Below are positions 5,426 to 50,800 of a stretch of 64,000 nucleotides of DNA, one piece after another. The first letter of the stretch is position 1. The number at the start of each line of letters is the position of its first letter. The stretch spans positions 496,001 to 560,000 of the forward strand of contig CAMPDV010000088.1 of the NCBI GenBank assembly GCA_946699065.1, in the 5' to 3' direction. Below the pieces are notes generated by a model. The model did not search any database, was not told the DNA's origin, and saw nothing but the letters and a program-made list of their open reading frames with translations. The DNA is from Loxodes magnus (lineage: Eukaryota; Ciliophora; Karyorelictea; Loxodida; Loxodidae). The position numbers and the translations under genes are program-made.

Positions 5426-7693
5426 ATGTAAAGTCTTGTCTGTGAAGGATGCTAAAACGAATTTGATGAAAATAATAAAATTCCAAGACGATTAGACTGC
5501 GGGTGCGTTTCTTGCGAAAACTGTTTGAGAGTAATGTTTAGATTCTTAAAAAGATTAGAATGTGCGACTCATAACTCAGTAACAAATAAGAGAATAGAAG
5601 ATTTAGAGATATTTAAATAATCATAATAATCACAGAGCCAAGAGTAAATAGAAAAGTAATAATTAGCACTAAAAGAAAATTAAAACTGCCAAAGAATATT
5701 GTAATAAGAACTTAGAAAGTTTTGTACTATTCACTTAAACCCACTCAACTATTTTTGCTCCTAGGAAAATAAAGCAATATGTTCCTCCTGTGTCTAATCA
5801 AGTAGTCATAGCACTCATACAGAAATAACAATAGAAAATGGAATTAAGAAAATATAAAACTTATTCTCATAAAAATATCTAAATTTATAAAAATAACTTA
5901 ACGATTAAAAGCAAGAATTTAAATTGTTTCAAGAATGATTAGAAGATAAAAAAATTGAAATAAATAAAGCCATAAGATAGAACATAACTCATTTCTATAA
6001 TTAAATAAAAGCATTTTGCTACCATTATTTTAGGAAAAAATATTTAAAAATAAAAGAGAAAATGCTTAAATCTTCTGAAATTTTTTTTGATAGTTAGAAA
6101 ATTCAACTAGCTTTGAAATAATAAGCTTTTGCTGAAGTTAATTCTGTGGAAGATCTTTTAGAAAGGAATAAATAAATGGATTAATTAAATAATCAATTTG
6201 AGCAAAATTAGAAAGTAGGGAAATCTATTAAATAATTAAGCTATTAAAATGTTTTCGCTAAAATATAAAAATGAATATTACAAAATATATTTGAAAATAA
6301 TTAAGACAATTTATTCAAATAATAAACAGATAAATTAAATTAATTGATAGATTAAAAGGATCAATAAATATATCACTTAAGCTTTAATTTACAGAAACAA
6401 GAATAAGAAGTAAAAAATTTAAATTTATTAAATTAAGAAAGGTAAAATTAAGTTTCTGTTTTAGAAGAAGAAAAAGCGTAATTGTCAAAAAAAATATAAG
6501 AATTGCTTGAAGAAAGAAGTTAATTATAGAAATATATGTCATAATTACAAAATTAGATATAGCTGGATAATTAATAAAAAGAACAAAATAGTTGTTAAAT
6601 TGATTTAAGCTCGTCACAACTTAAAAAAATATAACCCTTCTATTAATATAATAACTATTTAAGAATAAAATGAGGAAGTAATATTAAATAAAATCTTGAT
6701 TTATCCAATCTTACTTTCTCTTAAACAAATTTAGTTTCTTTAGGAGAAACAGATTCATATAAAACATTTTGTTACTAGATTGACGACTTATAAACTATAT
6801 TGGCAGGAGGAAGAAGTACTAAAACTCACATGAACAACATAATTAAGATTAATGAAACGAAAATTTAAAAATTTAATTTATAATATCCTAAATAATTTAC
6901 TTCTCTTACTTATGATAATTAATAAAATATTTATGTTATAGTAGGTTGTGATTAGAAAGACTAGCATTCAAACACATGTGAAGGTTTTGATGTAAAAAGT
7001 AATAGAAGAATAGATAATATTGGAAATCATCCGCTTAAAATGTGTGTTAATGGAAATTGTTATGTTTCGTAAACTATATTTACATTTGGAGGATATAATT
7101 CAAGAGATCTAAACGAAATCTATAATTATAATATTGAAACAAACAATTGGAAATAAAATAATATAAACTTGCCAAGAGGAGCTAGTAGTATATCAGCTTT
7201 ATTTGCTTATGAAAAAGAAACAATAATTGTATTTGATAATAGGAATCTTTTATAAAAAACTTTTATATTTGATTTAAAGAATTTTAGTGAGCATGGGTAA
7301 TAATTTCCTTATAACGGTTCATGTCCGTTTTGATTTAATGGAATATATAAAAATAAATAGATTTTTATGTATTCAGCAAAGAATACTTAACAAGATCTTT
7401 TATACATGTACGATATGAGATTAAATTAGAATGAATCAATTTGGAAAGAAATAAAACCTTAAATAAATTAACTTAATTACTAATTTTTATAAAATATATC
7501 TAAATTATAAAGATAACAAACATTTACTTATTGTTTATTTATTAAATAATTAATTTTTATTAAATGTAGAGTAAAGATATACATTCTCTGGGCTTTCAAC
7601 TAGATATCTGATGATAATTTTTTTCTTGATTGTATTCACAATCTTTTTTATGAATGGATGATTACCGAAAATGATTTTTTGAGCTTCTTGTGA
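5426..7693 (+). CDS. RING / B-box / coiled-coil / kelch protein (TRIM-like E3 ligase)
   Basis: The start MQSLVCEGCQNEFDEN leads straight into a RING finger (Cys pairs near residues 6 and 9, then DCGCVSCENC). A B-box type 2 zinc site follows (CTIH, CSQENKAICSSC, HSTH, near residues 105-140), then about 300 residues of Gln/Lys/Glu-rich coiled coil. From about residue 450 come kelch-like blades (ILAGGRS, IFTFGGYNSR, SIWKEI). This is the TRIM layout with kelch replacing the usual C-terminal domain, suggesting a ubiquitin ligase with a kelch substrate arm. TGA is read as Trp three times or more (for example SCPFWFNG). No intron is needed. Recognisable protein ends near 7450. The first in-frame TGA after that is 7691-7693, inside a retroposon copy, so the annotated C-terminus is provisional. 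Confidence 0.8.
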
Positions 7694-10599: not shown

Positions 10600-10800
10600 T
10601 GGACCTTGCCTTTAAAGGTTAAAAGAATTTCCCAAAAGGAACTGACTCGGAAGCTAACCTTCTAAGCGTTGGACTAGGCTAATCTCTTCATCATGGATTG
10701 GAAATTTACCTGTAATTTCCTGTTGGTGTCCTGTGCTTTGAAGATTTAGAACCGCAACCTTACCCACAATTAGAAGAGAAGATACAAAGGGAATATTGGG
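10600..10800. ncRNA. Candidate structured RNA or SINE body, about 200 nt
   Basis: A GC-richer, non-coding island starting GGTGGACCTTGCC. It contains a perfect stem GGAAATT / AATTTCC with a 7-nt loop and several shorter stems (CCTTTAAAGG, GAAG...CTTC). It resembles the 8628 island in texture but I could not align them. Strand and identity unknown. Confidence 0.35.
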
Positions 10801-10838
10801 AATTTAATGTTTTTAAAATTAACTTCTTATATTGCTAC

Positions 10839-11837
10839 TCACACTTTAATTAAGATTAAGATTAAGATTAAATGAGAGTTAACAGTTATGCTAAAAAGCC
10901 GGTTAACGTCGGTGTTACTTCTGAACTGGTTTTTTTTGACGGTTTTCCTTCCGCCGTGACACTCTTCTAGGCTGTATGTCACTCTGAGATCAGTTATTAA
11001 GAAAATCTTGAATATAAATGTGCGCTCTTGGGCCTTTCTAGTTCATTTCTTCTGGCGTCAATTTCCTATAAATCCTCCCGTTCGGATCGCAGTATAGCCT
11101 CTACTTATTAAAAAACAATTATCTTTCTTTTTGTTTTTAGGCTTATTCTGCTTTAATCCGCTTCAGCTCTAATGTCCTCCAATATTCTCTTTGTTAGTCT
11201 TAAAATTTCCTGCAATTTCTAAAGAGATGTCAGCTACTGCCACAGCAGTAACAAGATTTGGGCTGACTATATTGGATTTGGGAGGTGAGGTAGAGGTCTA
11301 GGAGGCGTGTTCTTACTCCAGTTCCATGAATTAATTTTACTGGAGAGCAGAATCCGGCTGATAATCCTACGCTTACACGTAATAGGTCTTCTGACCACTC
11401 AATTACTCGATAGTGCGACTCTGAAGCAAAATAGTGTCGTGAGCTTTTTTGATCTCCGCTTGCATATCGAAAACCTCCTACTCAAGTTTAACAAGTCTGG
11501 CTTAATCCCAAGTACTCAACTTGGTGCCAGTTTGGATGGTTTTTGTTAGAGTTTGCTTGAGGTCCTGTACCTCTTGTCTGAGCTCTGCTTACTCGATGGC
11601 TAGCTCGTTATCATAGCCAGAGCCGGACAGAGAGAAATCGCTCACTGAGGATTGTTGGAGTTAAGTTTTCTTTTTAGGTTTCTCTTCCTGCAGTTGCGTT
11701 CCTGGAGAAGTCTGTAGATGTTTCTTCTGGGTCTGGGGAATAGTCTGTTGTTGATATTGGGCCTTTTCTTCCTTGCCCTCTTCCCCTTTTTTATTACCTG
11801 TTGGAGGTGGATAGAATCCTTTTCTCAGACCTGACAT
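10839..11837 (-). mobile_element. Gag-like coiled-coil ORF of a retroposon
   Basis: A frame open from ATG 11837 to TGA 10839 (332 residues with internal TGA as Trp). It starts MSGLRKGFYPPPTGNKKG, matching in style the MAEGFKKGFF start at 62478, followed by a Gln/Glu/Lys coiled coil. From about 11290 downward a second frame is more protein-like (LQEILRLTKRILEDI, RSEREDLQEI), so a frameshift probably splits the ORF. GC content and codon choice differ sharply from the neighbouring spacer. Near the 3' side is an AAGATT microsatellite (10851-10871). Likely a non-autonomous or truncated LINE ORF1. Confidence 0.55.
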
Positions 11838-12179
11838 CTTGTTAACTTTTAATTGAAGAATTATTACTCACATTTTAATAAAAGTTTTTTTTAAAATAAA
11901 ATATACCTTGATAACGTAACTTAATTTTTTTTAAAATTAAGATATTACAGTTTTATAATAAGCTAGTAAATTCTGCAATAAATTAACTTTTCAAACTACT
12001 ATTATATATTAAAAGTCTATAATGCTAATGAAAATTATAATAAAAATAAAATACTATGACCACTAAAATAAAAAGCTTATTAGAATGCTAAAAAGTCTAT
12101 CTTAATTGAACTAATTTTTCTTGAAATAAACTAAACTAAGAAATAATAATAATAATAATAATATACTTAAAGTTAGTAG

Positions 12180-12974
12180 AGTTTTGCATTCTCTGGAATT
12201 GCAATCAGTTCCTGCGGACAGTTTTTTTAACGTGGGCGTGATCCACGACCTTTTTATTAAGTGGAAGGTTACCACAGTAACCGTTCAAGTGATCTTGAAA
12301 AACTTTTATTTGTAGATCCCTGTTGGAGTTATTCATAGTTTATTGAGTTGTCTCAATGTTCTTTTCTGCTCTTATTCGTTTATTTTCTTTCATTATCAAC
12401 AGTTTTTTAAAATATGTTGATTTGATTCGCAACATCAACAAAGTTTGTATTATTGTCTTTATTTCGTTCTTTTCTATGATAATTTATTTTCTATATTTTC
12501 TAATCTTTTAATGAAACTTGTAGCAATCATTTCTTTTTCTGGATTCAATTCTGTTTTTAATTCTATTGGTATTTTTTCTATTTCCATTTTTGTGTCGTAT
12601 TTAAAATTTTATTTTGATTAAGTTCAGAGTTATTCTTCCGTTATCAAATTGCTTTGAATGAGCTGTCTTCTGAGTATTAACAATTCGTTGTTTTAATCCT
12701 CTATGCTATTCATTAATTCCCTTATTTTTTCTCCTTATTTATAAGCTATTTCTTCATACTTTGAAATTAATTTTTACATTTGATCTAGTTAAATTTAAAG
12801 TTTTTGATCAGATTCGTTCTTAGGTTATCTTATCTCTATAGATCCTACCATCACTTTACCTTCTGATGACGAACTTTACTCCTCTCGTTGCTATTGTTTT
12901 TTCTAAATTTCTTTTGCCGCTTTTCTCTTTAGGTTTTTAAGTTAATTCTTTGAGAGTCGAAGAGATTAATCCAT
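12180..12974 (-). mobile_element. Retroposon ORF1: coiled coil plus CCHC zinc knuckle
   Basis: ATG at 12974 opens one uninterrupted frame starting MDQSLRLSKNQLKNLKRK, then QQREEQSSSSEGKVMV, a long helix (residues about 55-170) and a knuckle CWCCESNQHILKNC, which fits C-x2-C-x4-H-x4-C. About 80 basic residues follow to the 3' end. TGA is used as Trp at least five times, including inside the knuckle. The 3' side carries a GC hairpin CGTGG...CCACG and an (ATT)n tail at 12145-12165. This is the best-preserved member of a family with copies at 7566 and 58105. It has the architecture of a LINE gag-like RNA-binding protein; no reverse transcriptase lies next to it. Confidence 0.65.
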
Positions 12975-17660: not shown

Positions 17661-18030
17661 AGCTAGCAAAATTTTTTATGCTACCCTTATTAAGTCAAAT
17701 TAGTGAAAACTATTATTATTATGTCAATAGACTCAATATGATCTTAAATTCCTTTTTTAAGCTATCTAAAATAAATCTATTCTCATTTATTTTCTCCAGT
17801 TATGATTCTTAACTAAAACCTGAAGATTCTTATTTGAAATAATTTATTTAATAATTTCTATTTATATTTTAACAATAGTATACTGATTAAACTTACTTTT
17901 TTCTTAAAAGATTAAAAAAGTTTAATTCCAGCTATTTTTATCTTCTAAAGTAAAAAATCATAAAATTTAATCAATTAACTTAAGTTTATAAAGGCTTAGC
18001 TAATTTAAGCATTAAACAATAATATTAAAG

Positions 18031-20597
18031 ATGTCTGAATCTAACAAATGAGTGTCATGCTCATGTTAATTTGGCATTCAAAAAAGAATTCCAGTTACTC
18101 TTTCTTGTGAGCATAAAGCTTGTAAAATTTGTGTTTTGGAGCAATAACAAAAAAATGGTTCTTACTAGTGTCCGAAAAGATAGTGCAAAAAAGTGCCATT
18201 TGTTGATCCTTAAAATTTTTCGGGCTAAAAAGATCAAGCAATAGCAAGAAAAAAAGAATAAAAATAATTGCATTCTGAAGAAAATAAAAATAAGACACCT
18301 TTATAATAAAAAACTAAATAAAGAGCCAAACAGCTAAAAGTTTAGATTATTACATCAAATAAAGAATAAATAAACCAAACAATAGAGGAAGGAAAGACAA
18401 TCGAGTAACTGAAGCAAAAAATTGAATAACTAGAAGGAATTGATCCTGATTTTTACGAACTCTATTTAGGAAAAAAATAATTATAGAAATTTGATTTTGT
18501 AAATAAAAAAGAGTTTTAAAGAGAAATTCATCTGATATTTAATGATTGTAATAAATTAAATATAGGAAGTGAGAAAATAACATTATTTTAGAAGGTAAAA
18601 AATGAGTTCAGAGAGTAATAAATAAATAGACCAGTTTTGAAGAAAATGAGAAAATAAGGTATATAATAATAATAATAGATCGTAAAAATAATAATAATCA
18701 GCTTGTAATAAATCTCATATTAGAAGAGAGTAAAAAGCTATAAATTAGATCAAAATGAATTCAAAAAAAGTTAAAATTAATATGAAGGAGGTAAATCTTA
18801 AAAAAGCGAGTATTGTATTAATCTGAAGTGAGTAATGGATTAAAATATAGAAAGTAATATAATTATAAATAGGATGTAATAAAATAAAATGAAGTTTGTA
18901 AGAAAATAAGATAAAAAGGAAGTAAGAACTAATACAGAATGTTAATTTTAATGAAGTTAGTAAATGAAATTAATATCAGATGGTAAAAAATTAAAGCAAG
19001 AAAGTAAGATATGAATATATAGCTAGTAGCATTTTAAATCAAAGGAGGTAAAATATAAAAAAGAGGGTAAATCTAACTAATTTAGAATGCATGATATTTA
19101 ATAAATTTAGATGATAAGAATTTATAATAAATTATAGAGAGTAAATATTTTAACTCAATTAAAGGCAGTTTGCTATTTTTAATGATTGCAGCATGTAAAA
19201 TATTATAATTTAAAAGATGATAAGATACTTTGAACATTTATAGATTGTAATGCGTTCCGAACATTTAGGGGGAAAGATCCTTAAAATTTGTACAGAAAGT
19301 AATTGCTTTAGGATTAAAGACTGTAAAATGATTAAAGAAATTAGTCTGTAAATTTTTAAAATACTTATAGAATGTATTTACTTTAAGATATTTGCAGTGA
19401 GTAAAATTTTTATAAATATAGAGGGTAAATAATTAAAATTTATAGATAGTAGAAAGTTTTAAGCTTTATAGATTGGAATATTCTTTATTTTTATAGGGAG
19501 TAAAATATTAAATTTATAGTAAGCAAGAAAATAAAAATTATAGCATGTTTAAAATTTAAATAATTCTAGATGGTAAGAAATTCAAATTTCAAAGAAAGTA
19601 TGATAAAACATCAAATTTAAAGAATGCAAGATAATTTAAACATCTAAAAGGAAGAAAGATATTTAATATATTTGTAGCTTGTTAAAGATTTAAATTCTTA
19701 AAGATGGTAATAATATTAATATATTGAAGAGGGTCAGAAACTTTAAATAACTATAGATGGTAAGACATTTTAGTTGCTTCTAGACAGTAATTGATAAAAT
19801 TTATAGTGAGTAACATAAGTTAAATAATTATAGATTGTAATATAATTTAGATATTTATAGTAGGCAATAATTTTTGAAATAGTCAGAATGTAAGAAACTT
19901 TAAATGGTTATAGAAAGTAAGTCATTATAAATATTTATAGAGAGTAAGAAATTTAAAAAATATGAGAACTTAAATATTTAAAGAAAATAAGATTCTTTAA
20001 TTATATAGAATGCAAGATATTTTACTTAAAGTGAGTAAGATGTTGAAACAATTACAGCTTGTTTAATTTAACATTATAGAAGGTAAGATATTTTAAATAA
20101 TCATAGAATGTATCACATTTTATAAATTTATAGGGAGTTAAGCATTTTAAAGTCTTATAGATGGTAAGATTTATAAATATTATAGAAAGTAAAATTTTTT
20201 TTAGATGGTAAATATTTTCGGATCAAATAGAGTGTAAGAAATTTCAAATTATTTAAGTGAGTAAATAAAATTAATTTTTAAAGAATGTACAAGATTTGAT
20301 TCACTTGTAGTTTGTATCCAAAATTCATTATAGGCAGTATTTAAATAATTATGATAGGTAGTATTTTGAATTTATTTTAGGAGGCATATTTTAAATTTTA
20401 GGTTTTATTTTAATTAAAGGTTGTAAGACGTAATCATTAGATGGTAACTATTTTACTTAGATTGTATTTATTAATATAAGTTTGTACTATTTAATTTTAG
20501 TCAGTAATATAATAATATAGAATGTATTTGTATAATGTAAAGGGGGTAATTTTCTATTTCTAAGAAAGTAAAATGCTATAATTTAGGTATTTATTGA
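18031..20597 (+). CDS. RING-finger protein whose C-terminal third is split into single-codon exons
   Basis: Exon 1 (18031-18658) codes for 209 residues. A RING-like zinc site uses C10, C12, C26, H28, C31, C34, C47 and C52 (first pair unusually spaced by one residue). A Gln/Lys coiled coil follows, then a segment resembling the end of a bromodomain (DPDFYELYL, KEFQREIHLIFNDCNKLN). At 18659 the first of about 78 introns begins. Four early exons are 3, 3, 6 and 42 nt; the next 73 are each exactly 3 nt, all in phase 1. The last exon (from 20587) closes with TGA at 20595-20597. The spliced tail is balanced protein (for example YDWENFQLKDNWITYEKW) and uses both TGG and TGA for Trp. Predicted total about 303 residues. 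Exon 1 is solid; the tail depends on splicing that only RNA can prove. Confidence 0.75.
18659..20586 (+). repeat. Array of about 78 micro-introns separated mostly by 3-nt exons
   Basis: The motif AG-NNN-GTA(A) recurs about every 20-27 nt. Between motifs the sequence is A+T-rich, 15-25 nt, starts mostly GTAAG/GTAAA and ends TAG, AAG or CAG. Mean intron length is about 21 nt. Spacing is near 20 at both ends and near 27 in the middle (19080-20160). About six introns start GC and about seven start AT, GA, GG or TT instead of GT. Intron bodies are not copies of one another, so this is not a simple satellite. The only other intron of this size I can place in the window is 53434-53453, also phase 1. 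Confidence 0.8.
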
Positions 20598-20599
20598 TT

Positions 20600-21597
20600 G
20601 AAGAATGTCATTGTATTTTCTCGAATTTAGCTAATTACTTTTTTAGTTTGTAAAAATTAAGATATGTGAGATCTTTATTATTACAGAGGGCAAATGTTTA
20701 ATATTAAGCTGAGGAAAGTTTAACATTTAACTTTTATTAATTAAACTCTTATTATTTTTGACTTTTTAATCATTTTAATTTTTTATATTTAAAACGATAA
20801 TAAATTTCCTAATTATTTGAAGTTTAATTTAATTATAAACTTTACTATTATTTTTAACTTCCTATTTTAATATAATTATATTAATCTTATTAGCAACCTT
20901 ATATAAACTTATTTAAGATAATTCTATCAATTTTTTATATGTTTTTCTATTAAAATTTGCAATAATATGTGAAGAGCATCTTTTTGATAATTATAAATGA
21001 CAGTGTTTTGAGAATATAAAATTAATTGATATTCATTATATATTTTATATTTTATTCTTATTTTAAAAGTCAAAATCTCCATTCTTTTATTTGCTTTTTC
21101 TCATTAAAAAAGATAAATGATAAAAATAATTTTATGTTGGTTGGATTTAATCCGAAATAATTTTAAATAATTTCCAAAGCAAATTTCTATGATAAACAGT
21201 TTTGTTATCAAACTTAAATTTAATTATTTATTTAAAATATTGCTATAATTGAATATTCATTTTTCAATATTTTTAGCTATATTAATTAATAAAAAATTAA
21301 CATTTTTTACTCTACTACTAAAAATTATGCCTTAAACTTGATATACAAATTTTTGGTTTCCTAGATAATCTATATCATTAAAAGATTATGAGAATTAAAT
21401 TAAAATTATTTTTTGCTGTATTTAAATATGTTTAAGTAGATAAAAAACTATTAGTTCTAAACTTATTATTTTATTTAGAAAATTAAATAAATTAATTAAA
21501 AGCATATCTTAGTAATAGATTATTATTTTAATAATCTAAAATTTTTATAAGCAGCTAAAATAGTAAATTATCAATCATTTTATTTTATTTTTTATAT
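20600..21597. other. A+T-rich spacer after the array
   Basis: A few AG-NNN-GT motifs continue to about 20700 past the TGA, perhaps alternative or decayed exons. The remainder shows no gene or repeat I recognise. Confidence 0.4.
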
Positions 21598-28569: not shown

Positions 28570-31500
28570 ATGGTAAAGAAGACTTTCGTAGCTAGGATTT
28601 TATGACTATGAGTGTTTTTGAGCTTTTCCTTTTATTTTTCATAAGCTTAGCTAATAGCTCTTCTTACCTCTGCGAAATCTAATTCTCAGTTAGAGCAAAA
28701 AATAAAGGATAATATGAGTTAATATTTAAACTACAGGCTAGTGTCTCATCAATTATTAGATCAATACCAATCCTATAGATTAATCTAATCATGAAAGACT
28801 AACTAAAGCTTATTACTAGTCATAGATATCACAACCCTACCCATTTTTTCTCTTCATATAAACTAAGTTTGCACATAGCTAAGTGTTTTGCACTTTATAG
28901 CAGACTAATAATCTCTAAGCAAAAAGATTAAAATTAAATCAATATTTACAGATCCAAAGGTAGAAGAAGAGATAAAAGCAACTAAAATTCTGCTAGACTA
29001 TTTTAGCTGATAAAGGATCGGGCTAATATAGGATGAAATGAAAAGTGAGCTTTTTGATAGTATCTCATAAGCTTTCTCTTAGTACGTTAAAATTTTGTTT
29101 TTGTTTTCAAGTCAAAAGTAAATAAAAGAGAATATCAAAATTGGAGGTGCCTTCTTGAAAAGCTAAGGCTTAAGCATTATTTTATTTACAGGAAAAACAT
29201 AACTGACAGTATAAATTTGAGAACTAATAGAAAGCTTAAAAATGAACAGAGAGGGATTTTAATGGATTTATTCATAACGTGCTCTTGTTTCTTTTTATGA
29301 AAACTACTTGACTTAAAGTAAATAAATAAGAGTTCCAGATGGATTTTGCGGGATTTCTAAAGGTTTATTTGAGTCCTACGTTGATTTATAGTGATAATAT
29401 CTAGCCAAATATTTAAATCAACTCAAAGCGGTAAGTTAAATATGTGGAGATTTAAGTTAAGTACATTGCTTTCTAAAAAATCTTCCTGAATAAAAGTTTG
29501 AATTTTGCATTTATAACGGACAAAATGGAACGCTAAAAGAAATAGGGATAATTCATAACCAAAATCAAACTATAACATGAAATGATAAATTTTTATTTCT
29601 TGGTCCAACTTGAAAACATCCTACAGGTTAAGATATTGAAATAGAAATATCATATCAGTCTAGCAATCTAAATCCAGATGGAAATGCTCAAAATTGAGTA
29701 GACACAGTTATTTAAGCGATCTAATTAGCAGTGGATATGATTAACGAAAGAGAAGATATTTTAGCAAATTATATCATAAAGGCTAATGGTTTCTCTTTTG
29801 GGGCTACCTCCTGAGATTATTAATTTGCCGACTTAGAATATTAAAGAAAGAAAGACAGTCTAGGAATTGCTATGTTGAGTCCCTATACATCAGGAGTTAC
29901 TAAATAATGACTTAATTATTTATATAGCTAAGGAGATTACAGACCTGTAGTAGGGACAACTCCAAGCAATGAAATATTCTCAAATAAAACAAGATTTCCT
30001 AACTTTGTTAGAACATTATATTCAGATGCCTTTATGTCAATCTTACAAGTTTTAATGATGAAAGTATATAAATGAACCAAATTTGCGTTGCTGTACTGTA
30101 ATAATACATGAGCAGTGGGTCTTGGAAAAGGCCTAGAAAGAGAAGCTAAACTATAAGGGATTTAGATAATGAATCCGGAAAATTTAAGGATGATTCCAGA
30201 AACTATAAAAGGTGAAACTAAGAATGAGGATTAGTAATGAAAACCATAAGTTGAAGCCTTTTTTAAAAGCGGAACAAGAATAGGAATAGCTGTAGTCTAT
30301 CAAGATGATTTGTTTAACTTTATTTTTCCATATTTATATCAGTTAGGAAGTAGATAAAGTGACTGAGCTTGACTTGCAAATGAATGATTTAATTCAGACT
30401 TAATATTGAGATCAAATAATGACGAAAAACTAAAGAAGTCCTTAGATATAGTTAAAGGAGCTTTATAGTACAATCCTTCTTCGTATATTGGAGAATTTGG
30501 CTAAAAAGTTTTTGACCAATTTTAAAAAGTTTACGGTAAAAAGCCATTTTTCCTGTCTTCGTTTTCCTATGATGCCACTTTGCTTCTCTGTAAAGCATTA
30601 GACTCATTAATATAAGAAGGAAAGGATTATTCTTTAGCAGAAAATATAAATGAACAATTAAGGAAAATTAAGATAGTAGGTACAAGTCAGTAGAAATTAT
30701 AGATTGAGAAGGACAGTAATGATCCTGCTTACAAAATTTATGATATTTTGAATATAAGAGATGATAAAAGAGATGGAATATGAATTGATGAAAAAATAGG
30801 CGTTTTATGCTAAACTTGCTCTATAATAATATAAATAAACAAGGATGTTATGTGAGGAGATGGGAGCTCAAAAATTCCCTCAGATTAAATTATCGATATT
30901 GATTGTCCATTTAGATCACGGAATATAGAAGATTCAAAATATGGTAGAATTGTTAATAAGTCTATTTTAAATGGTATCATTATAATAGCTACAGTTTTAA
31001 ATTTATTAGGGTACAAAATTTGGAAAAACATGGAAGTGAAATAAATTAAATAAAAGATAGAAATGACAGTTGAGGATGGAATCTTTCTATCGATATTATT
31101 TATTGAACATTGCTAGCTTCTATCAATTGGACCAAGCTACAAATAACTTGGAGAATGAATAGAGTAACTATTCAATTTAAGTAATTTTGACATTTATGAA
31201 TTCATAAAATGAGGAGAGGAAGCTCATAAAATTATATTTTGATTATGTTCCTTCATTTGTTTCCTACTCTTTTTGATGCATATTATTTTGCTTGTGAGGT
31301 TGGAAATAAAATTCCCTTAATCAATTTTCGTAAACTATTCAGTGTAATTCAGTTTTATTTTTTTACCTATATTTTCTGATTTATTTTTCATCCCTGTTTT
31401 GTGATCTTTAACCGATATTTTAGACTGTTCAAATGGAATCGACTTTAATAAAAATGGGAAGGTAGAATTAAATGAAAGCTTTTTAAACAGCGACTGCTAC

Positions 31501-32598
31501 ATAAGATGTTGAACTGGGGAGCATATTAAATATTTAGTAATTTCGTTCTTGAGTTTGCTTATTTTCTTACCAACTACTTGTATCTTTAAATTCCTCTCAT
31601 AGCAATTTACTACTGATCTAAATATAAAAAAATATCCAGGGAGCTATCACTTTAAAACATCATTCTTATTTCTAATAGTTTTAAGCTGTAAGCATTTCCA
31701 AGAAAATGAAATGATAGTTGGAATATTTCAAAGCAGCTGATTTCTGTGTGGTGCCTTTATTTACTTTTGCAGATAAATCTATAACTATGAATGATTTAAC
31801 TACCTCTAAGTGTTGGTACATATTATGATGGGAGAGCTTTGCTTAGTCGCTACCATTTCTACCTATTTTAAAGATATTAATCCTAATACCTGGATTATAG
31901 CTTTGTTCTTTTCATTAGTACTTACTGCTTTACTTGGGAATTATCTTCTGTTGAGAAAAGCTGAGAGGTATATATATAGAAAGCAGTAGGATAATACGTT
32001 ATGATGGAGGTTTGCTTTTAAGCCATTTGCTTAAGTAGAAATGTTAGAAAAGACGATTGTAGAATGGAAGAAAGGCAGATTATCGATAAATATGAAAATA
32101 TTTTAAAGAGACCATAAAGAAAAATTTGATACATTAAGCAGAAAAATCCAAAACAACAAAAAAGAAGATTAAATCTAAGAGGAAAATAACGTAAGTTGCA
32201 ACTTGGCAGATAGTAGTCTTGATAAGACTAAAATAGATTTGGATGAATCTACTATTAAAAATAAAACCTAGTATACTAAAATAAATTCAAATGTCTCTAA
32301 TGAGCTAATAAAGGTTAAAGATAGTAACTAAATCTAGGATATTTACGATTTCAGATCAAACTAAAAAGAGTCAATTTTATTATCCTAGCAATCTTCACTT
32401 GAGAATTAAGTTAAGTTAGGAAATAGTCAATAAGAAAAGTTATCTGATGGTATTAGCCAAAATTCTCAGGATTAGAGCAGTAATTAGAGTGTTTAAGAAA
32501 ATGAAAATTTAGAAAATTCCAGCTAAAATTCTAAGACAGGTGATCAAGGATTTGGAACTTCGAATCTTGATAATAAAAGTGAGAAAGCATTTGATTGA
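28570..32598 (+). CDS. Large receptor: two periplasmic-binding-like domains and 8-9 TM segments
   Basis: A 1342-residue single frame with no intron. A signal peptide (MVKKTFVARILWLWVFLSFS) precedes a reduced ANF-receptor-like domain (about 30-340; TKILLDYFSWQRIGLIQDEM). A second, fuller one follows (about 355-790; AIQLAVDMINERE, RFPNFVRTLYSDAF, YKWTKFALLYCNNTW, SYDATLLLCKAL). Membrane segments begin at residue 797 and number eight or nine, more than a class C GPCR. Between segments 4 and 5 lies DFNKNGKVELNE, which fits an EF-hand loop, next to a Cys pair. The last 200 residues are a polar Ser/Gln/Asn tail. The gene ends at TGA 32596-32598; Trp is written TGA about as often as TGG. Likely surface chemoreceptor; ligand unknown. 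Confidence 0.85.
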
Positions 32599-34320
32599 AA
32601 TATTCTAAACTTAAATATATTAATTACTTATAAAGCAAACTAACTAACTCAAATTTATTAAAACTAGTTTTAAATTTAAATCATTAACGTTTTTAAATTT
32701 CATTTAACAAGCTTTAGAAAACTAAGCAGTCTGAATTTTATAACTGATTATCTATACATAAGTTAGATAACTTCTCTTTGTTTAATTTCCTTCATATTAT
32801 TTATAAATAATTGATAATGAAAGAATTCTTAGTATAATTCGTGGCTCATTTAATTAAGTAGACAACTAGAAGGTAGATTTATAAATACAATAATCTTTCA
32901 ATTTAAATTTTAAGTCTCTTTTGTTCTTAGATGCACTTAAGTAACTTTACCCTACAATAGAATTGGCGCTGACTTTATATCTACTCAATCAGATTTTTCT
33001 ACTATTATACTTGTATAAGGATATCTTGAATTTTATTTCCTTCTTTGACCAATTTACCATTGAATCTGTAAGAAAATGGAAATATATAGCAATAACTTAG
33101 CAGTAAATCATCTATTATCTAATTATAATTGTATCTATGACTACTTCATCTCTAAATATATTAATACGGATTAAGTATGCTCAAAGAAGAAAATTACTAT
33201 AGACAAAAGACACTCTGCTTAAGCAATAAATTTCTCCTGCTATATGTATAATAAATTAAGCTAAAGCAACTAAAGCTTATGAAATGCTTAGTAGATAGCC
33301 AATTTATTTAGACAGATAATTCTTCTTTTCTTTAATATCTGTTACTAAATTTTTTTGCTTACTTTTTCCTTTTTTGCAAAATAGTTAGAAATGAGAAAAA
33401 CGAGGCAATATTAGATAATTATGCTCATTTATATAAACTTAATACAGTTAAAAATTTAAATTTATACCTTTTCTTTAGTATTAAATTATTTTTATCTCTA
33501 GAGTCTTCCTTCGTATAATAAAGACTCATACCTTTAAAAATTTCCTTAAACTTAAAATAAAGAAACTGAAATAGAGGATCTCATAGTTAACTAACTCCAG
33601 CAATACTAACTAGAAGCTATTGCAATGATTTCAGATAGAACAGCTATCAGCTTTTCCAGTCTCTTTTTAATTTTTATTTGATTAAATTTCTATTTATCTT
33701 GCTAAGTATCTAGATTGATATAATTTCTTTTTATAGCATTCTATATCTTTTAACTATTTGAAATTATCCATAAACATAAGTAGAAATTTCTCTTCGATTC
33801 ACATAAGAACACTTTAAATGGGTATATTATAAATAATATACTAGATACTCTAGTCTTATATAAAAGGCTTTTATAATATAAAGCTTCCTAGCTGTTTCTT
33901 ATAAATTACTCAATCAAATACCTTTAAATCATAACTTATTTTAATTTCTTTTTATTCCTTACTCTATTCTCAGCCTCATTAAAATAAGAAATACTTCTAG
34001 TAACAATAAGCAAAATCAAGCAGTTAGCAGAAATAAATCTACCATAATTTACTTATTTTCTGCTAAAGGAATTCTAGTCCTTAATGTAAGCCACTTGACT
34101 AGAGTAGGTCTTAAAGTACTCAGATCATTTAGCCTTATACTAGTATACTAAAATAAATTAGCGTTTTTCCCTTTAAGCAAGTAAATATTTAGCTATATAA
34201 AGAAAAAAGATTGAAGCATAAAAGTAGTTAATAAGGATATAAAAGAATATTAAAGAAATGGGTAATTAAATAAAAGTACTAAAGATAAAGTTTATTTATT
34301 TCATTTTAGCTATATTATAA
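32599..34320. other. Spacer with an open but low-quality frame
   Basis: From about 32880 one plus frame reads LALTLYLLNQIFLLLYLYKD and continues to about 34100, but Gly, Pro and Asp are rare, as expected for untranslated A+T-rich DNA in a code nearly free of stops. I do not call a gene. Confidence 0.35.
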
Positions 34321-38220: not shown

Positions 38221-39729
38221 ATGGGTTGCTTTTCTAGTGGATAAGCTCTGTAAGAGTATTTTCTATCCATTTCTGAGCTTAAGTATTTATAAAGCTTCTA
38301 AGGATAAGAAAGATTGTAAGAACTGCAAAGAATTCATGGAGTTCGGTATCAGATATAAACAATTGAAGATTTTAACAAGGTTAAAGTAGGGAGGAATAAA
38401 GAGGAGTAGAAAGAGATAATCTAGAAACATAATGAAGTTGTATGGGAATGAAAGGGTAAAGGAAATGTCTGATAAACTTATGATTAGGCTATTTAGCAAT
38501 AAATTAATAAAGCTTATTCTTCGAATCGAAGTGCTATTATCCTCATATAAAAAGAAAAGTAAGGAAATCAAATTGACTACCAAATCGATTTGAATCGCAT
38601 GAAGCAAACAAAAAAGCGAACCAATTTTGTACGTAAGATAAGAAAAGTAGAATCAAATTTCTATTTTTAGTGAGCTTGGTAGGGTGATTCTGGGTATAAA
38701 AATTATGGAAAGAAAGTAAACAAACTAATTAATGAAAATTTCCATAATATGAATTTTACATTTCAAATCACACTAAAGCAGCAAGAATTCACTATTAATC
38801 TTGAAGAAATGATCTAAATAAGCAATGAAAATCATTTTATAAGATAAATAATAAGAGTTATGCCAGAATCTCCTTAAGGAGCTGGAATTTTCTTTGGAGG
38901 TGAAAGAAATGTTTACTTTCTTAATTATATTAACGATATAAAAAGCGTTCAAAATATCGAAGTTATAGATTTCGAAAAAACTTTCGAAATAGTGCAGAGA
39001 TATTAACTTTTCATGTCCTTTAAAGTATGAAATATCAATATTTAAGGATATAAAGAAGATGTTAATATGGCTGCTTACGAAATATCTTAGCTTATATTGA
39101 AGACTGTCTAAGATCAAGGCTAATAAAATTAAGAAAATTTTCCAACTTTCTGAAAATAACCTTTCTAAGGATTTTACTATGAAAACATTTTATCAGAGAA
39201 TTCATATTAATATTAAGATACTGCCAGACAATTAATAGCTACACTTCCCTAAATAGATATTATTTAAATAACTGCGATTTAAAATAGATGGCTATATAAA
39301 CGATTTTCTAATGAGATTAATATATTAAGGGAGTTATAAGGATAGTAACCATAAATCTAAAAGCTATTTCATGGAACAGGAGGGACACTTCCAATAACCA
39401 TTAGTCGAAGTTCAACAGGTTTCGATGAGAAATTTGCCAGAGACGGAGGCTATTACGGAAAGGGTATTTATTTTTCAGAGCACGCTTCTTATTCAGATGG
39501 TTATGCTTATGAAAATTAGAGAATCAAATAAATATTTTTATGTGATGTAATAGTTGGAGATTCAATAACTCTGTCTAAAAATCCTAACTACGTTATGCCT
39601 CCTATAAATAAAAAATATGCCCCAAGAGAAATTCACTATGATTCAATAAATGATGGCCAGGGCATGTATATTTTATACCAAATAGGTAGAGCATACCCTT
39701 CCTTTTTGATATCTTATACCCTCTAGTGA
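38221..39729 (+). CDS. WWE-WWE-PARP mono-ADP-ribosyltransferase
   Basis: A 502-residue intronless frame. MGCFSSG predicts myristoyl/palmitoyl anchoring. Two WWE modules follow: residues about 67-140 (VVWEWKGKGNVWQTYDQAI) and 147-225 (FYFQWAWQGDSGYKNY), which in other proteins bind ADP-ribose or mediate contacts. The catalytic domain spans about 310-500: LFHGTGG with His384, YYGKGIYFSE with Tyr417, and Met482 where PARP1 has its catalytic Glu, ending AYPSFLISY. A His-Tyr-Met triad points to mono- rather than poly-ADP-ribosylation. Trp is written as both TGA and TGG inside the WWE modules, a direct proof of TGA = Trp. TGA 39727-39729 is taken as the stop, but see the open frame that follows. 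Confidence 0.9.
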
Positions 39730-40557
39730 GAAATTAAACCTTTCATCTTATTCATTCTTTAATATAAATCAATAATTCTAATTTCTAATTACTGCTTTAA
39801 GTCTTTAATTCTACATCATATATCATATCGCTATTTTTCTATCATACACATTTTATCTAATTTCTCTCCTTGTAAATTACTATTTTAGCCCTCTATTCTG
39901 TCTAACTTTATAACTTTAAAATATGAGATCTCATTCACAGGCTTAAAGGAAATAAAATTGTGAAAAATTCCAGAATTGAAGAATAAAGAATTAGATATTG
40001 AAAGTCTTACTGATAATAGAATGCTTCATTAGGATAATAAAAAAAGATGCTAAGAGTCAAATAACTATAAATAAGCTTATATAATAAAAGGAAAATAGTC
40101 TCATAATAATAGTTTCAATGATTGCATTCAATAAAAACCATACTGAGATTCATAAACATTAAAAAAGCACTAAAATAATAGTAAATCAAATAATTGAGTT
40201 TTTCTACCTAACTTGATATTTAGGAAATCTAATAAGATATGAAGCCAAATTATCTTGTTAAATATGCTAAACACTGTGAGAAGGAGAGAGATATTTAAGT
40301 CAAACATACAATTTATTTAAAGAATGAAGTTAATAATTAAATAAAATCATATAATGTAAAACTTGCTCTTTAAGTGGTTCAAATTCTTTATCTTATTTAT
40401 GCAAGCTCTACTAACAGAGATTATTAAAACGACAACTCGAATTATTATGAGTTTTTATACTTTTTGCCCAGACGTTAAACAAAATCACTCTGTCATTTAT
40501 TTATTTTTTGAATTAAAAAGTATAGTTATCAACTATAAGCATATTTACAGAGTTTGA
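39730..40557 (+). CDS. Open frame continuing in phase with the PARP gene
   Basis: If TGA 39727 were read as Trp, the PARP frame would stay open to TGA 40555-40557. The middle is protein-like (EISFTGLKEIKLWKIPELKN, SLTDNRMLHQDNKKRCQESN), the first 60 residues are hydrophobic and low in complexity. It may be a C-terminal extension, a separate gene, or a relic. No domain recognised. Confidence 0.3.
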
Positions 40558-44175: not shown

Positions 44176-47100
44176 ATGTCTAGCTATTATTTTACAACGG
44201 TAGTCAAGTAAGTGTTGCTTGTTTTGCTTTTTGTGCATACAACTGTTCAATACTCAATATAAAAGTTTCCTGCTTTCTTTGCTTAGCCTAGTAAGAGGAA
44301 TCATTTCACTATGATCTATTTAGAAGGAAGAAACTCTTTTTTGGTTTCGCATGGAGTTAATTAGGATGGATTATTGTCTGATCTTTGGGAATTTTCTCTG
44401 GAAGAGTAAATCTGATACTAGCACTTGACTTAGTCCTAGTTTTCTCCTGATAAAAGGCAAGGAACTGGAGTCTTTTACGACCAAATTTAAGGCCATTTAT
44501 ACGTGTTTGGAGGGTAATCAACAAGAGGAAATTTAAATGAGCTTTGGACTTTACGCTTCGATACTTAGGAGTGATAAAAAATAGAAATATGGGACTATAA
44601 GCCAACTCCAAGATACTTTCCCTTAGTTTACTCTGAAATTTAGAAAAACAAGACAGTTGCCTATTTTCTAGGCGGTGTTGGGAAAAATGAGTACTTAAAT
44701 GACTTATGAAAGTTTGATACTTCCAATCTTCAATGAGAATAAATTCAATACGGTGGAGGAACAGTTCCACCAGGATCTGATAGTGGGTGAATGTTTAAAT
44801 CAGGAGATTTAATTTTTCACGGATTAGGATATACTTAAACCCCTAGTAATTCTATATATATACTTAACTTATCTAATAGAGTTTGAACCAAAAAAGATTT
44901 ATCAGTAAATCCTACTTTTGCATGAGCATCAGGGACTTGTGTTGATTCAGTAAATCACAAGTTTTATAAGATATATGGAAATGATTTAAAACATAAAGCA
45001 GTTAACGAAATCTGGTAACTGGATTATTTAGATCCTAACAACTTAAAATGGACGAAACTTTCTGTAGTAAACAGTGATTAGTATAAAAGAACATATTTGA
45101 GAGCTGTAATTGATGAAGAAACAATTTGGGTTTATGGAGGAATTTCTGACAAGACTTCTTTCACTAATGATCTTATTTCTCTAGATATAAGTTAGAAGTA
45201 ACTTGAATTCAAGGTGATTCAAGAGAAGAATAATTTTTGTGGACCGAGAAAGGGACATAATATGGATATAATAAATGGAAAAATTTACATATTTGGTGGA
45301 TTGCCTTATTAAGAAGAGACATTGTCAGATGCTTGGAGTTTAGATACAAATAAAGTTCCTTTTTAATGGTAAAAATTGTAAAATGGCGGAGAAGCTCCTT
45401 AAGGCAGAGGTGATCATTTATCAGGAATTTAAGGAAAGTTTCTGTATGTATGAGGAGGAATTAACGAAGAGAAACATATCTTCAACGATATGTTTAGATA
45501 TGATACTGATGAAGATTATTGACTACAAATTATCCAGTATAATGCTCCTCCTCCAACTTATAAAGCATGCAGTCTTACAACTGACGATAAATGATTTATT
45601 TTTGGAGGACTTACAAAAGATGGAGAAACTAATAACCTTTATTACTTCGTTTTTGAAACATAATCATGAACTAAAATAACAGTTGAAGGAAGCAATAGTC
45701 CTCCTAATATGTGGTATCATAGATGCTATTTAAAGGATAGTAGGTATATGTATATAATAGGAGGACTTACTGAAGGCTTAATTCCTTAAGAAAAACTATA
45801 TACATATGATATTCAATAAAACAAGTGGCTTGGGATTAAAGAAGGAGTTTGCTCGGCAGGTGGCGCTCTTGCTGGAGAAGACGAGTTCATAGTGATGCTA
45901 GGAGGGTTTTGCTGGAATAAAATAACTGGAAGTACATTTATCTTAAATTTAAATACTTCTCAATCCGAGCAAAAGATTGAAAGTACATTTGATATTAACT
46001 TACCCCAGTTTATTTACGGACATACTGTAATTTATGTTGAAAAAAAGCTGTTTATTTTTGGCGGATCTATATTCGAAGGATTTTACTCTCAGACTGATTA
46101 TTCCTCAAATAAATTTTGAATTTGAGATTTATGATAAGAATGCAAATAAGACACTTCAAGCCTTTTTTGCTAGTGAAAATGTAGTAAAGGAACTTATGAG
46201 AAAGACAATGGAGATTGCTAGCTTTGCGAGCCGGGAACTTATTCTCCTGATGGTGATATATGCTTTAATTGCGGTGTAGGATTTCAATAGCCTTATTATG
46301 GAGCAATTTCAGAAAAATAATGTGCCCCCTGTCCTGAAGGAACTCATGGTTCAGCAGAAAAATTAAAAGCTTGCTATGCATGTACTAAAGACTAAAATTG
46401 TCCAGCTGGATCTATTGATCCACTAGAAAATATCACAATACATGATATTGAAGAATATTAGCCTCCATCTTACCAAAGCGACTAAGAATTAGAGAATGAA
46501 AGAAGTTAAGTAATAAGCATAACAATAGCATGTGCACTTACACTTGTAATTATCCTTATCTTTATATTTAGAAATAAAATTCAAACTTACTTAAGAAAAA
46601 TAGACTTATATGAAAGTAACCATAACAATGAAGTAAATCAGCCTATTATTAAATATAAAACTGCCTTTGGTGGATTTTGCTCTCTAGTTTATTTCCTTGT
46701 GATTATACTTCTGATCAGCTTAACTTTAAATACATTCTTTACCGAAAATATAATAGAGAAGAAAAACTTGATTCCCACTGTTGTGTTCTAGTAATCATAT
46801 CCTGAAGTGTACTCTGATGTTAGTACGACGATAGAATTATATGGTTATCAAGCTTAATGTCAAGATAAAAAAAGTTCCAACTAGTACAAATGTGTGAATT
46901 AAATTACTTATAAAATATAAAGGATACAACTAGACCCTTAGAAAGGATATTGAAGCGACCTAAAATGCTAGCTAGTCAATAAGACTTGCATAATTAACAT
47001 AGAATGCTTCAAATGCTCTTTTGGATTAGGATCTATTATTTAATTCATAGCATAAGAATAATAAAGCTATGCAAACAAAATTACCATAAACGTGACTGCT

Positions 47101-47805
47101 TTTTCGTCAATTCCTAATGAATATAGTACAACTAAAATAACTATAACGCCTGACTATAATAATCTTTATAGAGGATCTACCCCTACCTTAGTTGACATTG
47201 TGCTATTACAGTCTGCTTTTAAATCTTACGTAACCAGCACAGAAAATACAGGATATCATGTGCTGTTTTAAGAATGGGATAATGAAGGATCTCAGTATGA
47301 AAGTGATGAAATTTAGTATAAATCTGATCTCTTAATAACAACTGAGTTCCTTATCTCTGATGTAGCATTACAAACAATTCAAACTCCTGATTAAACTTGG
47401 ATCACTCTAATAAATAGCATTCTAGGAACAATTGTCGGTTTGCTAGGTACAATTGGAGCTGTGATGTCTGCTACGGAGCCTTATTTAGGATTCAAAATAT
47501 TCAAGTTAAACTTTTAGAAGCAAAACTTGTTTCAATGGTTTCAAGCAAACCAAGAAAAAAACATTCTCTTGGATTAATAGAGAAGCGATTAAGGTTAATA
47601 AACTAGTCCTTCAAAACCTGAAATGAATGGCAACTCTAGAAAGGAAAAATTGAAGAATTAAATAAATAAAATCAAAGACGAAAAAAAAGAGGAACAAAAA
47701 AAGGGAGAAGATCTCTATAAGCATAAATCAGAGTCAAATATTGGAGATGTATAGGAAAAAGAGCGGACTTTTTCAGGATAAATAATGGTTCATACTGAGA
47801 GTTGA
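44176..47805 (+). CDS. Kelch ectodomain / ephrin-receptor-like Cys-rich / three-TM protein
   Basis: A 1209-residue intronless frame. A signal peptide (VLLVLLFVHTTV) precedes about ten kelch blades (LYVFGGQSTRGNLNELW, IYIFGGLPYQEETLSDAW, LFIFGGSIFEGF), residues about 30-640. A Cys-rich stretch (about 650-760; CEPGTYSPDGDICFNCGVGF, CAPCPEGTHGSAEKL) matches the GCC2/GCC3 ephrin-receptor-like pattern. TM1 is near 778-798, TM2 near 833-856, then a 220-residue domain with paired Cys, TM3 near 1078-1100, and a Lys/Glu/Gln-rich tail. It stops at TGA 47803-47805, followed by TAA. About half the Trp codons are TGA. Likely surface adhesion or sensing; partner unknown. Confidence 0.85.
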
Positions 47806-50800
47806 TAATTCAGATTCATTTTAAATAATATCATCTAATTAATAAAAATATACTCTATAAATAATTAAATATAAGTTTAAGGTTAAGGACACAGCTTTAG
47901 GTTTTTATACTTACTTTATAGTTTTCAAGGATTTTAAAAATTTTCTTCTATCTTGATCACTAAATTATTGATAAGTGATAACAGACATCCTTAAAAAATA
48001 AGTGGTTATGCAATGAAAAATTCATGTCTTAATTTAAGGTATTTAAGAATATTCCCTTATAATAACAGAAGATAGAGATAAAGCTCTTTAAAAATTAAAG
48101 CAAGCAATACTGGAAATGGATAGAGATATCCATAAAAGTCATTATTAATATACTACGATATTTTCCTTAATATAACAATCAAGAATTTAAAAGTTAATGA
48201 CAAACCTCATTGATATAGAGGCTATTATTTACGACTTTACTAAAGCTCTATGCTTTAAATAGAGGTAAATAAATTTATAACTATGACTTTTTATAAATGT
48301 TGCAATCATTCATTAAAGCATAATAAGAATATAAATAGATAGGTTAAAAATTCAGATTAGAATTTCATATTTCAACTTCTTTGAAATGCCTTTAAAGATA
48401 TGAGTTTCCATTTTACTATTTTTTAGACTTAAAATCAGAATTTTTTTGAAATTAGTTGATATACTTAAATTAAGCATCAAGTTAGCATTGTATTAGAGTA
48501 ATAATAGTTCAGAGAATAATAAAACTTCGCTTTATTTTTTAAAGATAAGATCTTTTTATGATATATTAGTCCTCTTTAATCTTTATTGTCTTATGTGATT
48601 AAGAATTGCATAAGCATAAATGATTTTCCTTTTATCAAATACTCTTAATGATTTTTATAGTAGTTAATTTAAATTTAATCATTCTTATGTTACGAAAATA
48701 AAATTAGGGCACCAATATCTCTTTAAAAACTTCTAAATGTGTTTATCAATCCTTTAGTTGCCTTTTTAGTAAATCTCTTTTAATTTCTCATTAAAATTTA
48801 AAATACTAGATTACTTTACATTTATTAACTACCTCCTTTCGTTTTATTTCCTAATCTTAATTTATAATTCTTAATAAAAACTTGTTCAAGATATTTAGAT
48901 AGAACTGCTAATATTTTAAAACAGTCTATGATCATCACAATAATTAATTAAAATCATAAGATTATGCTTAGTATTCTTAAAATACAAGGAGATATATAAA
49001 ATTACTTGGTTACATTCCCCTATTTTATATATAATGATGGTATTTTTTAGTATTGCTCTAAGCAACTCCTATTACTATATTATAACTTGCAGAACCTACT
49101 CTACAAGTATTAAGCCTTTCTTATTTTTCTTTTATCAGACAGTGTTTTGTGTTTCTTATGGATATAATACTTTCTAATTCTCTTAAAGCTAAAAGAGCAT
49201 AGAAATATCTGCTTTTCATTCTATTTCACTTAATTAAAAGCAAAGCATTATGATTTATAAGCTTTTAATACTTAGTGTATAGCAGATTTATAGCTGGATA
49301 ATTACTAAGTAAAGGTTTCCTTACTAGAGCTATTAAATAACTTAATAGTTAATCTAGATTTCACTAGCTTTTTTTTCATTTGGTAGAGAGATATAGAATC
49401 TTATGATTTCAACCTAAGGAAGTTTTTAGATAGTATCACGACTATTAGAGTGTAGCTAGGGTATACAATTAAAGATAAAGGAGAAGAGCTAATGAAACTG
49501 TATTTAATGATAAATTTCGGATATAGGACAGTTGAAGTAAAGATAAAGCTGATTAAAGTATTTAAATGCTTTTGCTAGAAGCTACTTAGATTTGACTAGC
49601 TTTATTAAATACTAGCTGGACTGCTTTGTCTTTATCAAGATATAAAATATTATTATTTACCTCTAGAATCTCTAAAGGCTATGCTAGTTATAGCATAGAA
49701 CCTTTGGCTTAAGATATGCTATTAAATATTTAAAAGCTTTGCTAATTAAATTGAATAGCCAGTCTGTTTTTAAGTTGATTATGATTAATTAGCTTTATAG
49801 TTCCTTTATATTAGCTAAAAGGATTTAAAATTCCTCTACTAAACCTTTAAGTTTAGATTTGAACTAATCCATAAGATTGAAAAGTGTATATGCTTATCTG
49901 TTCATTTGTATTAATAAGCAAAAGTCAAATCTGCCCTTTATTTTAGCTGATGTAATAGATGCATCTATATATTACTTCATCGTTTAGGATATTTTCGCTA
50001 AGTAAATATATCAAAGATAAATTCCAAAGCACTTGGAAGGAAGAAAGCAAGTAAGTTCAATCAGTGTTCTTCTAACTAGCATCACCAACCAATAAAGTAA
50101 AAGACAAAGTAACTCTTCAAAAGCAATTTTGCATCTCTCTATCCCAAAAATCTAGTTAATCTGATTAGATTTAATCTATTCTATAAGACCAAAGAAATAA
50201 TAAAAGCTAAGAGACTACTAAGCAATCAAAGTAAAGCCTGCTTATAAAAGTATAATAAAAGAGCTAAAATTCTAACAATTCAAATATAAATTCTAACTAA
50301 ATTATAAAAAGCAGGTAGTTAGGTAATCAATTAGGAGATCTAGCATTTTTATAAGCAAAAATTAAGCTTAAAAGATATTTATAAGAAAAGTGGAAATAGA
50401 CTTATATACTTTAAATTATTGCCATTATAATTACTTTTTAGTTAGCTTTATTAGTTGCTTTTATCAAAGGTCGTTGTTAAAAAATTACCTGGAAAGAAAT
50501 TTCGTTTTTATAGACCTCATCAGCTTGATAAAGTCTTATTAGACATCATAGGTTTAAGCTTTGAAGGGCTAAAAGAAATGAAAAATTTTAAAGAAAAAAG
50601 TTTTGGAGTAGAAAGAGAGTTGATTGAGAACTAGAGATATATAAGTGGAAAGATTAGATAAAGAACTTAAGTTAGTTATTAAGCAAGTACAAATACACTG
50701 GAGTCATTGGATTCCAAGACAGAATTAAAAGAAAAGTTAAAAGTGACAAAAAAGAAAAATTTGGTAAAAATATTCCATAATCAAGATCCTTCTAATAAGA

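Follow-up and report, generated by a model that had tools for sequence, protein, structure and literature searches.

The locus

The window, i.e. the whole stretch of 64,000 nucleotides of Loxodes magnus DNA analysed here, carries on its plus strand a gene whose first exon, with a ubiquitin-like domain, runs directly into a long array of short, regularly spaced units. The features of this gene, with the exon-intron structure as predicted below, are as follows.

18031..18658, plus strand: exon 1, 628 nt, with an ATG start, ending in the phase-1 junction TAAG/GTATAT
~18055-18189, plus strand: RING-like Cys/His stretch
~18334-18543, plus strand: ubiquitin-like domain
18659..20586, plus strand: array made up of 80 introns, all predicted in phase 1, together with 79 exons, 78 of them three nt long and one of 21 nt
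18749..18769, plus strand: the single longer internal exon of the Viterbi parse, 21 nt (seven codons)
20587..20597, plus strand: predicted last exon, GTATTTATTGA, its terminal TGA taken as the stop

Elsewhere in the window we observed the following.

5426-7334, plus strand: possible RING/B-box protein with kelch-like repeats (by eye)
10800-12600, minus strand: possible remnant of a retroelement, with Cys motifs resembling zinc knuckles (by eye) and a G+C content of up to 38%
28714-32599, plus strand: gene for a receptor-like protein whose ligand-binding region matches ANF_receptor (1.1e-25), followed by possible membrane segments (by eye)
38221-39730, plus strand: PARP-like gene, its C-terminal part matching the PARP12 catalytic domain (1.4e-14) and its residues 73-148 matching a DTX1 chain, a region which we take to be a WWE domain; no intron found
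44176-47806, plus strand: probable membrane protein, rich in Cys and with kelch repeats in which TGA occupies several of the Trp positions; no intron found
56670-53403, minus strand: gene with four matches to Notch LNR and, judged by eye, possible membrane segments
61671-61892: perfect tandem repeat of 11 bp, ~20 copies, within a possible minus-strand ORF

Genes with Pfam matches run through TAA and TAG, and TGA is found at Trp positions of the kelch repeats, as expected where TAA and TAG encode Gln and TGA either Trp or stop. Six gene models with 4,941 codons contain 246 TAA, 74 TAG, 72 TGA (counting terminal ones) and 35 TGG. All three stop codons also have sense meaning in karyorelicts (NCBI table 27) and in Condylostoma (table 28). 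Read in this way, with TAA and TAG as Gln and the TGA at codon 7 as Trp, the frame of exon 1 is open, and from codon 7 onwards it meets no in-frame TGA before 18829, which lies inside the array.

The ubiquitin-like domain was recognised by Ubiquitin_2 in a search with 18031-18660 (4.5e-5, 24.3 bits, cut-off 23.1), and with the spliced product ubiquitin (9.7e-5) and Ubiquitin_2 (2.2e-4) both came out just under the cut-off. Single-domain ubiquitin chains in the PDB match at 2e-4 or weaker, and multi-ubiquitin chains far more strongly by repetition. The RING-like stretch is matched by RING models at 0.003-0.05 on the spliced product, zf-C3HC4_4 among them at 0.0032, all below the cut-off. A single-sequence model of exon 1 reached a mean pLDDT of 45.5, too poor for use.

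A regular array of AG-NNN-GT units

From 18659 to 20586 on the plus strand AG, three free bases and GT(A) recur in units of 17-28 nt, with strong constraint on the AG and the GTA(A). Counted over 18601-20720 (plus strand), AG and GT are separated by n = 0 to 9 nucleotides 8, 9, 2, 69, 4, 0, 4, 4, 5 and 7 times, so that the gap of three, with its 69 occurrences, stands far apart from all others. The strict motif AG-NNN-GTA occurs 59 times. A previous sequence-only reading had placed about 75 copies of AG-NNN-GTA, with exactly three nucleotides between AG and GT, at 18659-20597; the coordinates and the exact gap hold, but the copy number was too high, since only with GC and weak donors counted in would about 75 be reached.

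The array is real. The density of AG-NNN-GT is 19-30 per kb over the array and at most 9 per kb elsewhere in the window, and all chains of five or more such motifs with units 16-26 nt apart lie inside the array, the longest having 14, while three block-shuffled windows gave no chain of five. When exon lengths of 3-30 nt are allowed, the array yields chains of up to 25 and 24 units, compared with at most 7 in the rest of the window and at most 6 in shuffles. A three-unit pattern has 12 matches, all within the array, and none in 100 dinucleotide-preserving shuffles. The spacing of the units loses its regularity 3' of ~20597. A strong GC skew (0.32-0.46) at 18001-21000 coincides with the array, and we attribute it to the G at the splice sites together with the scarcity of C. 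An Rfam scan of the 64-kb window gave no match.

Predicted exon-intron structure

The region was parsed by a Viterbi procedure with exon length free between 0 and 60 nt (initially uniform) and intron length between 14 and 28 nt. Donor and acceptor weights were seeded from the AG-NNN-GT units, exon lengths were unseeded and no coding information was used. The purity of the splice sites is therefore partly built in, as the parse favours such sites, while the raw AG-NNN-GT count is independent of this bias. The outcome was a set of 79 internal exons, of which 78 measure 3 nt and one 21 nt, and of 80 predicted introns of 14-25 nt (mean 20.9), none of them longer than 25 nt although 28 nt was allowed. 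Their removal would take out 1,673 nt in total and leave a coding sequence of 894 nt, with 297 residues before the TGA. The earlier figures of about 78 introns, 1,655 nt and 303 residues are thus corrected, whereas both protein strings quoted with them are reproduced exactly and, as suggested there, each of the 80 predicted introns would cut its codon after the first base (phase 1). On this DNA-based prediction the gene would have a multi-microexon architecture, i.e. consecutive short exons with lengths divisible by three and in one phase.

Introns of L. magnus defined by RNA-seq have a mean length of 19.3 nt and a mode of 17, with 93% at 25 nt or less and those under 16 nt negligible, while heterotrich introns measure 15-16 bp (PMC11441545). 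The predicted lengths fit the former and not the latter: 78 of the 80 introns fall within 16-25 nt, and the remaining two, of 14 and 15 nt, both have TT donors and are doubtful. Taken together, the code and these lengths point to a karyorelict, perhaps Loxodes. The depletion of intron lengths divisible by three that was described for L. magnus (PMC11441545) is absent from the array (29 of 80). The introns average 18.7 nt over the first 19, 22.5 nt in the middle and 18.2 nt over the last 13, and length is autocorrelated along the array (r=0.55; 0 of 5,000 permutations). The array gene is an outlier in its neighbourhood, since the five other gene models (~14 kb of rough coding sequence) have no intron at two settings of the search and one doubtful intron at the loosest. 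Over the rest of the window the loosest setting gave five candidate introns, two at 11-12 kb, two at 60-62 kb and one at 53453, none of which we trust; those at 11-12 kb and 60-62 kb lie in repeat-like ORFs.

The 80 donors comprise 66 GT, 6 GC, 3 AT, 2 GA, 2 TT and 1 GG, and the acceptors are AG throughout (45 TAG, 26 AAG, 8 CAG and 1 GAG). On the plus strand the non-GT donors of the parse are distributed as follows.

19089..20419: all 14 non-GT donors, introns 19-71
19089, 19523, 19626, 19864, 20012, 20384: GC donors
19114, 19220, 19987: AT donors
19272, 19654: GA donors
19475: GG donor
19970, 20405: TT donors

Their clustering gives p=0.0016, with boundaries picked after seeing the data. Some triplets are perhaps skipped, because 8 of the 80 donors are neither GT nor GC, the other 72 being one or the other; dropping the exons that precede these eight keeps the frame, and a comparison of inclusion with skipping at these sites favoured neither clearly. 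Exons at the weak donors may thus be skipped, or the sites may be tolerated. The last exon base is G in 19 of the 78 three-nt exons. Within intron interiors GT is depleted (13 against 23 +/- 3.5 in shuffles) and AG slightly so (16 against 21 +/- 3.5). The AG used is the sole one at 16-25 nt in 52 introns and the first of several in 23 more, so that a rule of 'first AG at >=16 nt' fits 75 of the 80.

Coding character of the triplets

Are the triplets coding? In this genetic code nearly every frame is open, which makes coding prediction self-trained on long ORFs useless, and the codon usage of genes with Pfam matches served as the better reference. The G+C content of the triplets is 28%, near that of coding genes (29%) and of exon 1 (26%), and differs from that of intron interiors (11%, p=1.7e-9) and of the near flanks (p=0.002); the difference from presumed intergenic DNA is not significant (p=0.09). 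Purines make up 65% of the triplets and 51% of presumed intergenic DNA (p=9e-6), and base composition along the triplets agrees best with that of codon positions when read in phase 1, with a lead of 5.3 to 6.1 log units.

If each codon is split after its first base, the final base of an exon should form likely codons with the two opening bases of the next. In phase 1 such a cross-junction association exists (z=2.7, p ~0.003), compared with p ~0.25 in phase 2; genuine 80-codon stretches give z of 2.1 +/- 1.1 and off-frame ones 0.7 +/- 1.1. Among 15 lags, lag 1 is the strongest, with lag 0 at p=0.019 and lag -3 at p=0.048. The result varies with the training set, p being 0.002 to 0.075 in four subsets and 0.33 with exon 1 alone, while with the ANF gene alone phase 2 gave p=0.02. 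It also varies along the array (middle part p=0.004, 5' part 0.28, 3' part 0.11). Codon likelihood per codon is -3.70 in phase 1, -3.74 in phase 2 and -3.84 in phase 0, and a looser column shuffle favours both phases alike (phase 2, 0 of 2,000; phase 1, p=0.0035). The claim that the phase itself carries signal is favoured by the cross-junction test but is weaker than first put, since plain likelihood sets phase 1 only slightly apart from phase 2 and the looser shuffle does not separate the two; altogether we regard the codon evidence for phase-1 coding of the triplets as moderate.

The predicted tail of ~88 residues has no match in Pfam, and its best PDB hit (E of 0.25 or worse) is taken as chance; the large protein database gave no match to either the whole product or the tail. 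This absence carries little weight, because the large database is poor for this organism: the PARP-like neighbour gene is likewise unmatched there, despite clear relatives in the PDB.

Proposed mechanism and alternatives

We propose that the locus is a spliced gene of karyorelict type with a tail of ~88 residues interrupted by ~80 spliceosomal introns, in which nearly all exons are single codons and which has grown by duplication of the repeated unit; to this reading as a whole we assign a probability of roughly 0.7. Intron lengths, the constant AG, the composition of the triplets and the codons formed across junctions speak for the splicing into phase-1 single-codon exons that had been suggested from the sequence, while the tail without homologue and the eight donors outside the GT and GC types speak against it.

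In the proposed mechanism spliceosomal introns, nearly all of 16-25 nt, each cut a codon after its first base, so that nearly every residue of the tail would be assembled across an intron. Splicing would follow intron definition and take the introns singly, each donor pairing with the first AG at least ~16 nt downstream; by this length rule neighbouring sites would stay paired and each event would add 3 nt. Skipping one exon would require an intron of 35-58 nt, and such lengths are rare in Loxodes (PMC11441545). Since neighbouring spliceosomes would hardly fit simultaneously, we infer that the introns are removed one by one.

How could such an array arise? Tandem duplication of a unit of intron plus 3-nt exon would add one codon and leave the frame undisturbed, after which the triplets would diverge with AG and GTA held fixed. 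The autocorrelation of intron length and the local similarity of introns suit this origin: in the middle part introns up to three units apart show raised similarity (p=0.002), with p=0.09 when distance 1 is taken by itself. Against it counts that neighbouring triplets are no more alike than others (0.89 of 3 positions at distance 1, 0.98 overall), as a fresh tandem duplication predicts likeness, and that units with similar introns hardly tend to share a triplet (r=0.05, p=0.07 for the downstream triplet; r=0.02, p=0.22 for the upstream one). Two histories would account for this: the triplets may have diverged to saturation, or the introns were inserted into pre-existing codons.

The array might instead be a diverged minisatellite, or a run of AG-N3-GTA protein-binding sites, with no splicing and the gene stopping at an in-frame TGA such as that at 18829. 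TRF does report a period of 27 in two stretches and periods of 22-26 in two short ones, nearby introns are more alike, and the L. magnus genome is rich in tandem repeats (PMC11441545). However, decay would not spare AG and GTA while the inner three nucleotides and the remainder diverge. The units are not alike over their whole length (intron similarity 0.64, compared with 0.60 for shuffled interiors), 32 different triplets occur among the 78, and both the purine excess of the triplets over presumed intergenic DNA and the codon association across junctions sit badly with a repeat or binding-site origin. Chains of the same pattern in viruses and prokaryotes, where a scan of contigs found 18 and at least 119 stretches, respectively, consist for the most part of near-identical repeats whose triplet is fixed: among the best 40 of 107 matches the longest has 11 units, and in the 14 with at least 8 units intron similarity is 0.70-0.95 with mostly one fixed triplet, the less regular chains in the same set of 40 being L073, L053, L024 and L126. 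We consider such an unspliced array improbable. We are slightly more sceptical of the view that the whole array is excised at once, or in a small number of long (e.g. recursive) steps in which the triplets serve as stepping stones and are absent from the mRNA. A 1.9-kb AT-rich intron would need no 3-nt exon, and the eight donors that look broken could force exon skipping; but RNA-seq of L. magnus shows few introns above 25 nt, even if the annotation was limited to 40 nt or less (PMC11441545), and stepping stones would have no need of exon-like composition or of a phase-1 codon association.

Broken donors would find another explanation if a once-spliced array were now in decay, either as a pseudogene or with the tail partly lost by skipping. 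All 14 non-GT donors do lie within introns 19-71, and the frame would survive omission of the exons before the eight weakest. Yet exon 1 is open with a ubiquitin-like domain that is still recognisable, every one of the 80 acceptors is AG (a dinucleotide that the parse favours), and the codon association is found in the middle part that is home to 12 of the 14 non-GT donors. In our opinion decay is the least probable of these readings. DNA elimination was set aside, as no canonical IESs are reported in Loxodes by its genome paper (PMC11441545) and the boundary signals are GT..AG; translational bypassing was set aside on account of the same signals.

If the splicing reading holds, a further step would be that the array acts as a generator of very many protein tails through codon-by-codon splicing of units of one tiny intron and one codon, a doubtful but conceivable extension. 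As nearly all internal exons are one codon long and in one phase, any subset of them could be spliced in frame. Protein length would grow by one residue per repeat, and where exons are skipped new codons would form across the new junctions.

Comparison with known systems

The introns of the array resemble those described for L. magnus in being GT..AG, AT-rich and 16-25 nt long (PMC11441545), and resemble Stentor in that the last exon base shows no preference for G (PMC9505925). In contrast to the array, exons of a few nucleotides are not mentioned in the portions of the two papers cited here. The Loxodes introns were derived from short-read mapping (PMC11441545), which would probably miss runs of 3-nt exons.

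In mitochondria of Magnusiomyces, too, coding sequence is interrupted by short non-coding inserts in their dozens, the translational bypassing elements. Unlike the units described here, those are skipped by the ribosome, not spliced, and are not known to be bounded by GT..AG.

Genes with many microexons are already known. The bicycle genes of aphids have, like the array, many small exons in one phase that start at codon position 2, and the megacycle gene has more than 100 microexons encoding ~2,000 residues; they differ in having ~17 exons per gene (bicycle) and, as those ~2,000 residues are spread over more than 100 microexons, up to ~20 codons per exon (megacycle) (PMC9168663). The micro-exon genes of Schistosoma consist mainly of short symmetric exons whose skipping keeps the frame, again like the array, but the exons reach 36 bp, with one example of 9 bp, and a run of 3-nt exons is not mentioned in the text cited (PMC8293314). 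We do not claim kinship with either. Splicing of exons as short as 1-3 nt is illustrated by homothorax of Drosophila (PMC7392893) and by CYP621A of Fusarium and APC11 of Arabidopsis (PMC12940212), each described with a single exon in this class, where the array has ~78 in a row. As had been supposed from the sequence, we found no described gene with a long run of single-codon exons among the matches listed in a literature search over titles and abstract openings that included few subscription papers or preprints.

If RNA confirms the predicted structure, the array would represent a natural extreme for spliceosome mechanics, with ~80 assemblies in 1.9 kb around 3-nt exons whose order is perhaps kept by the length rule. 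It would also mean that a protein can gain length residue by residue via introns as a repeat grows, with a bearing on the origin of introns in bulk, and would serve as a warning that intron annotation from short reads can miss entire coding regions. The splicing task would then be more extreme than in the multi-microexon genes of the papers cited above.
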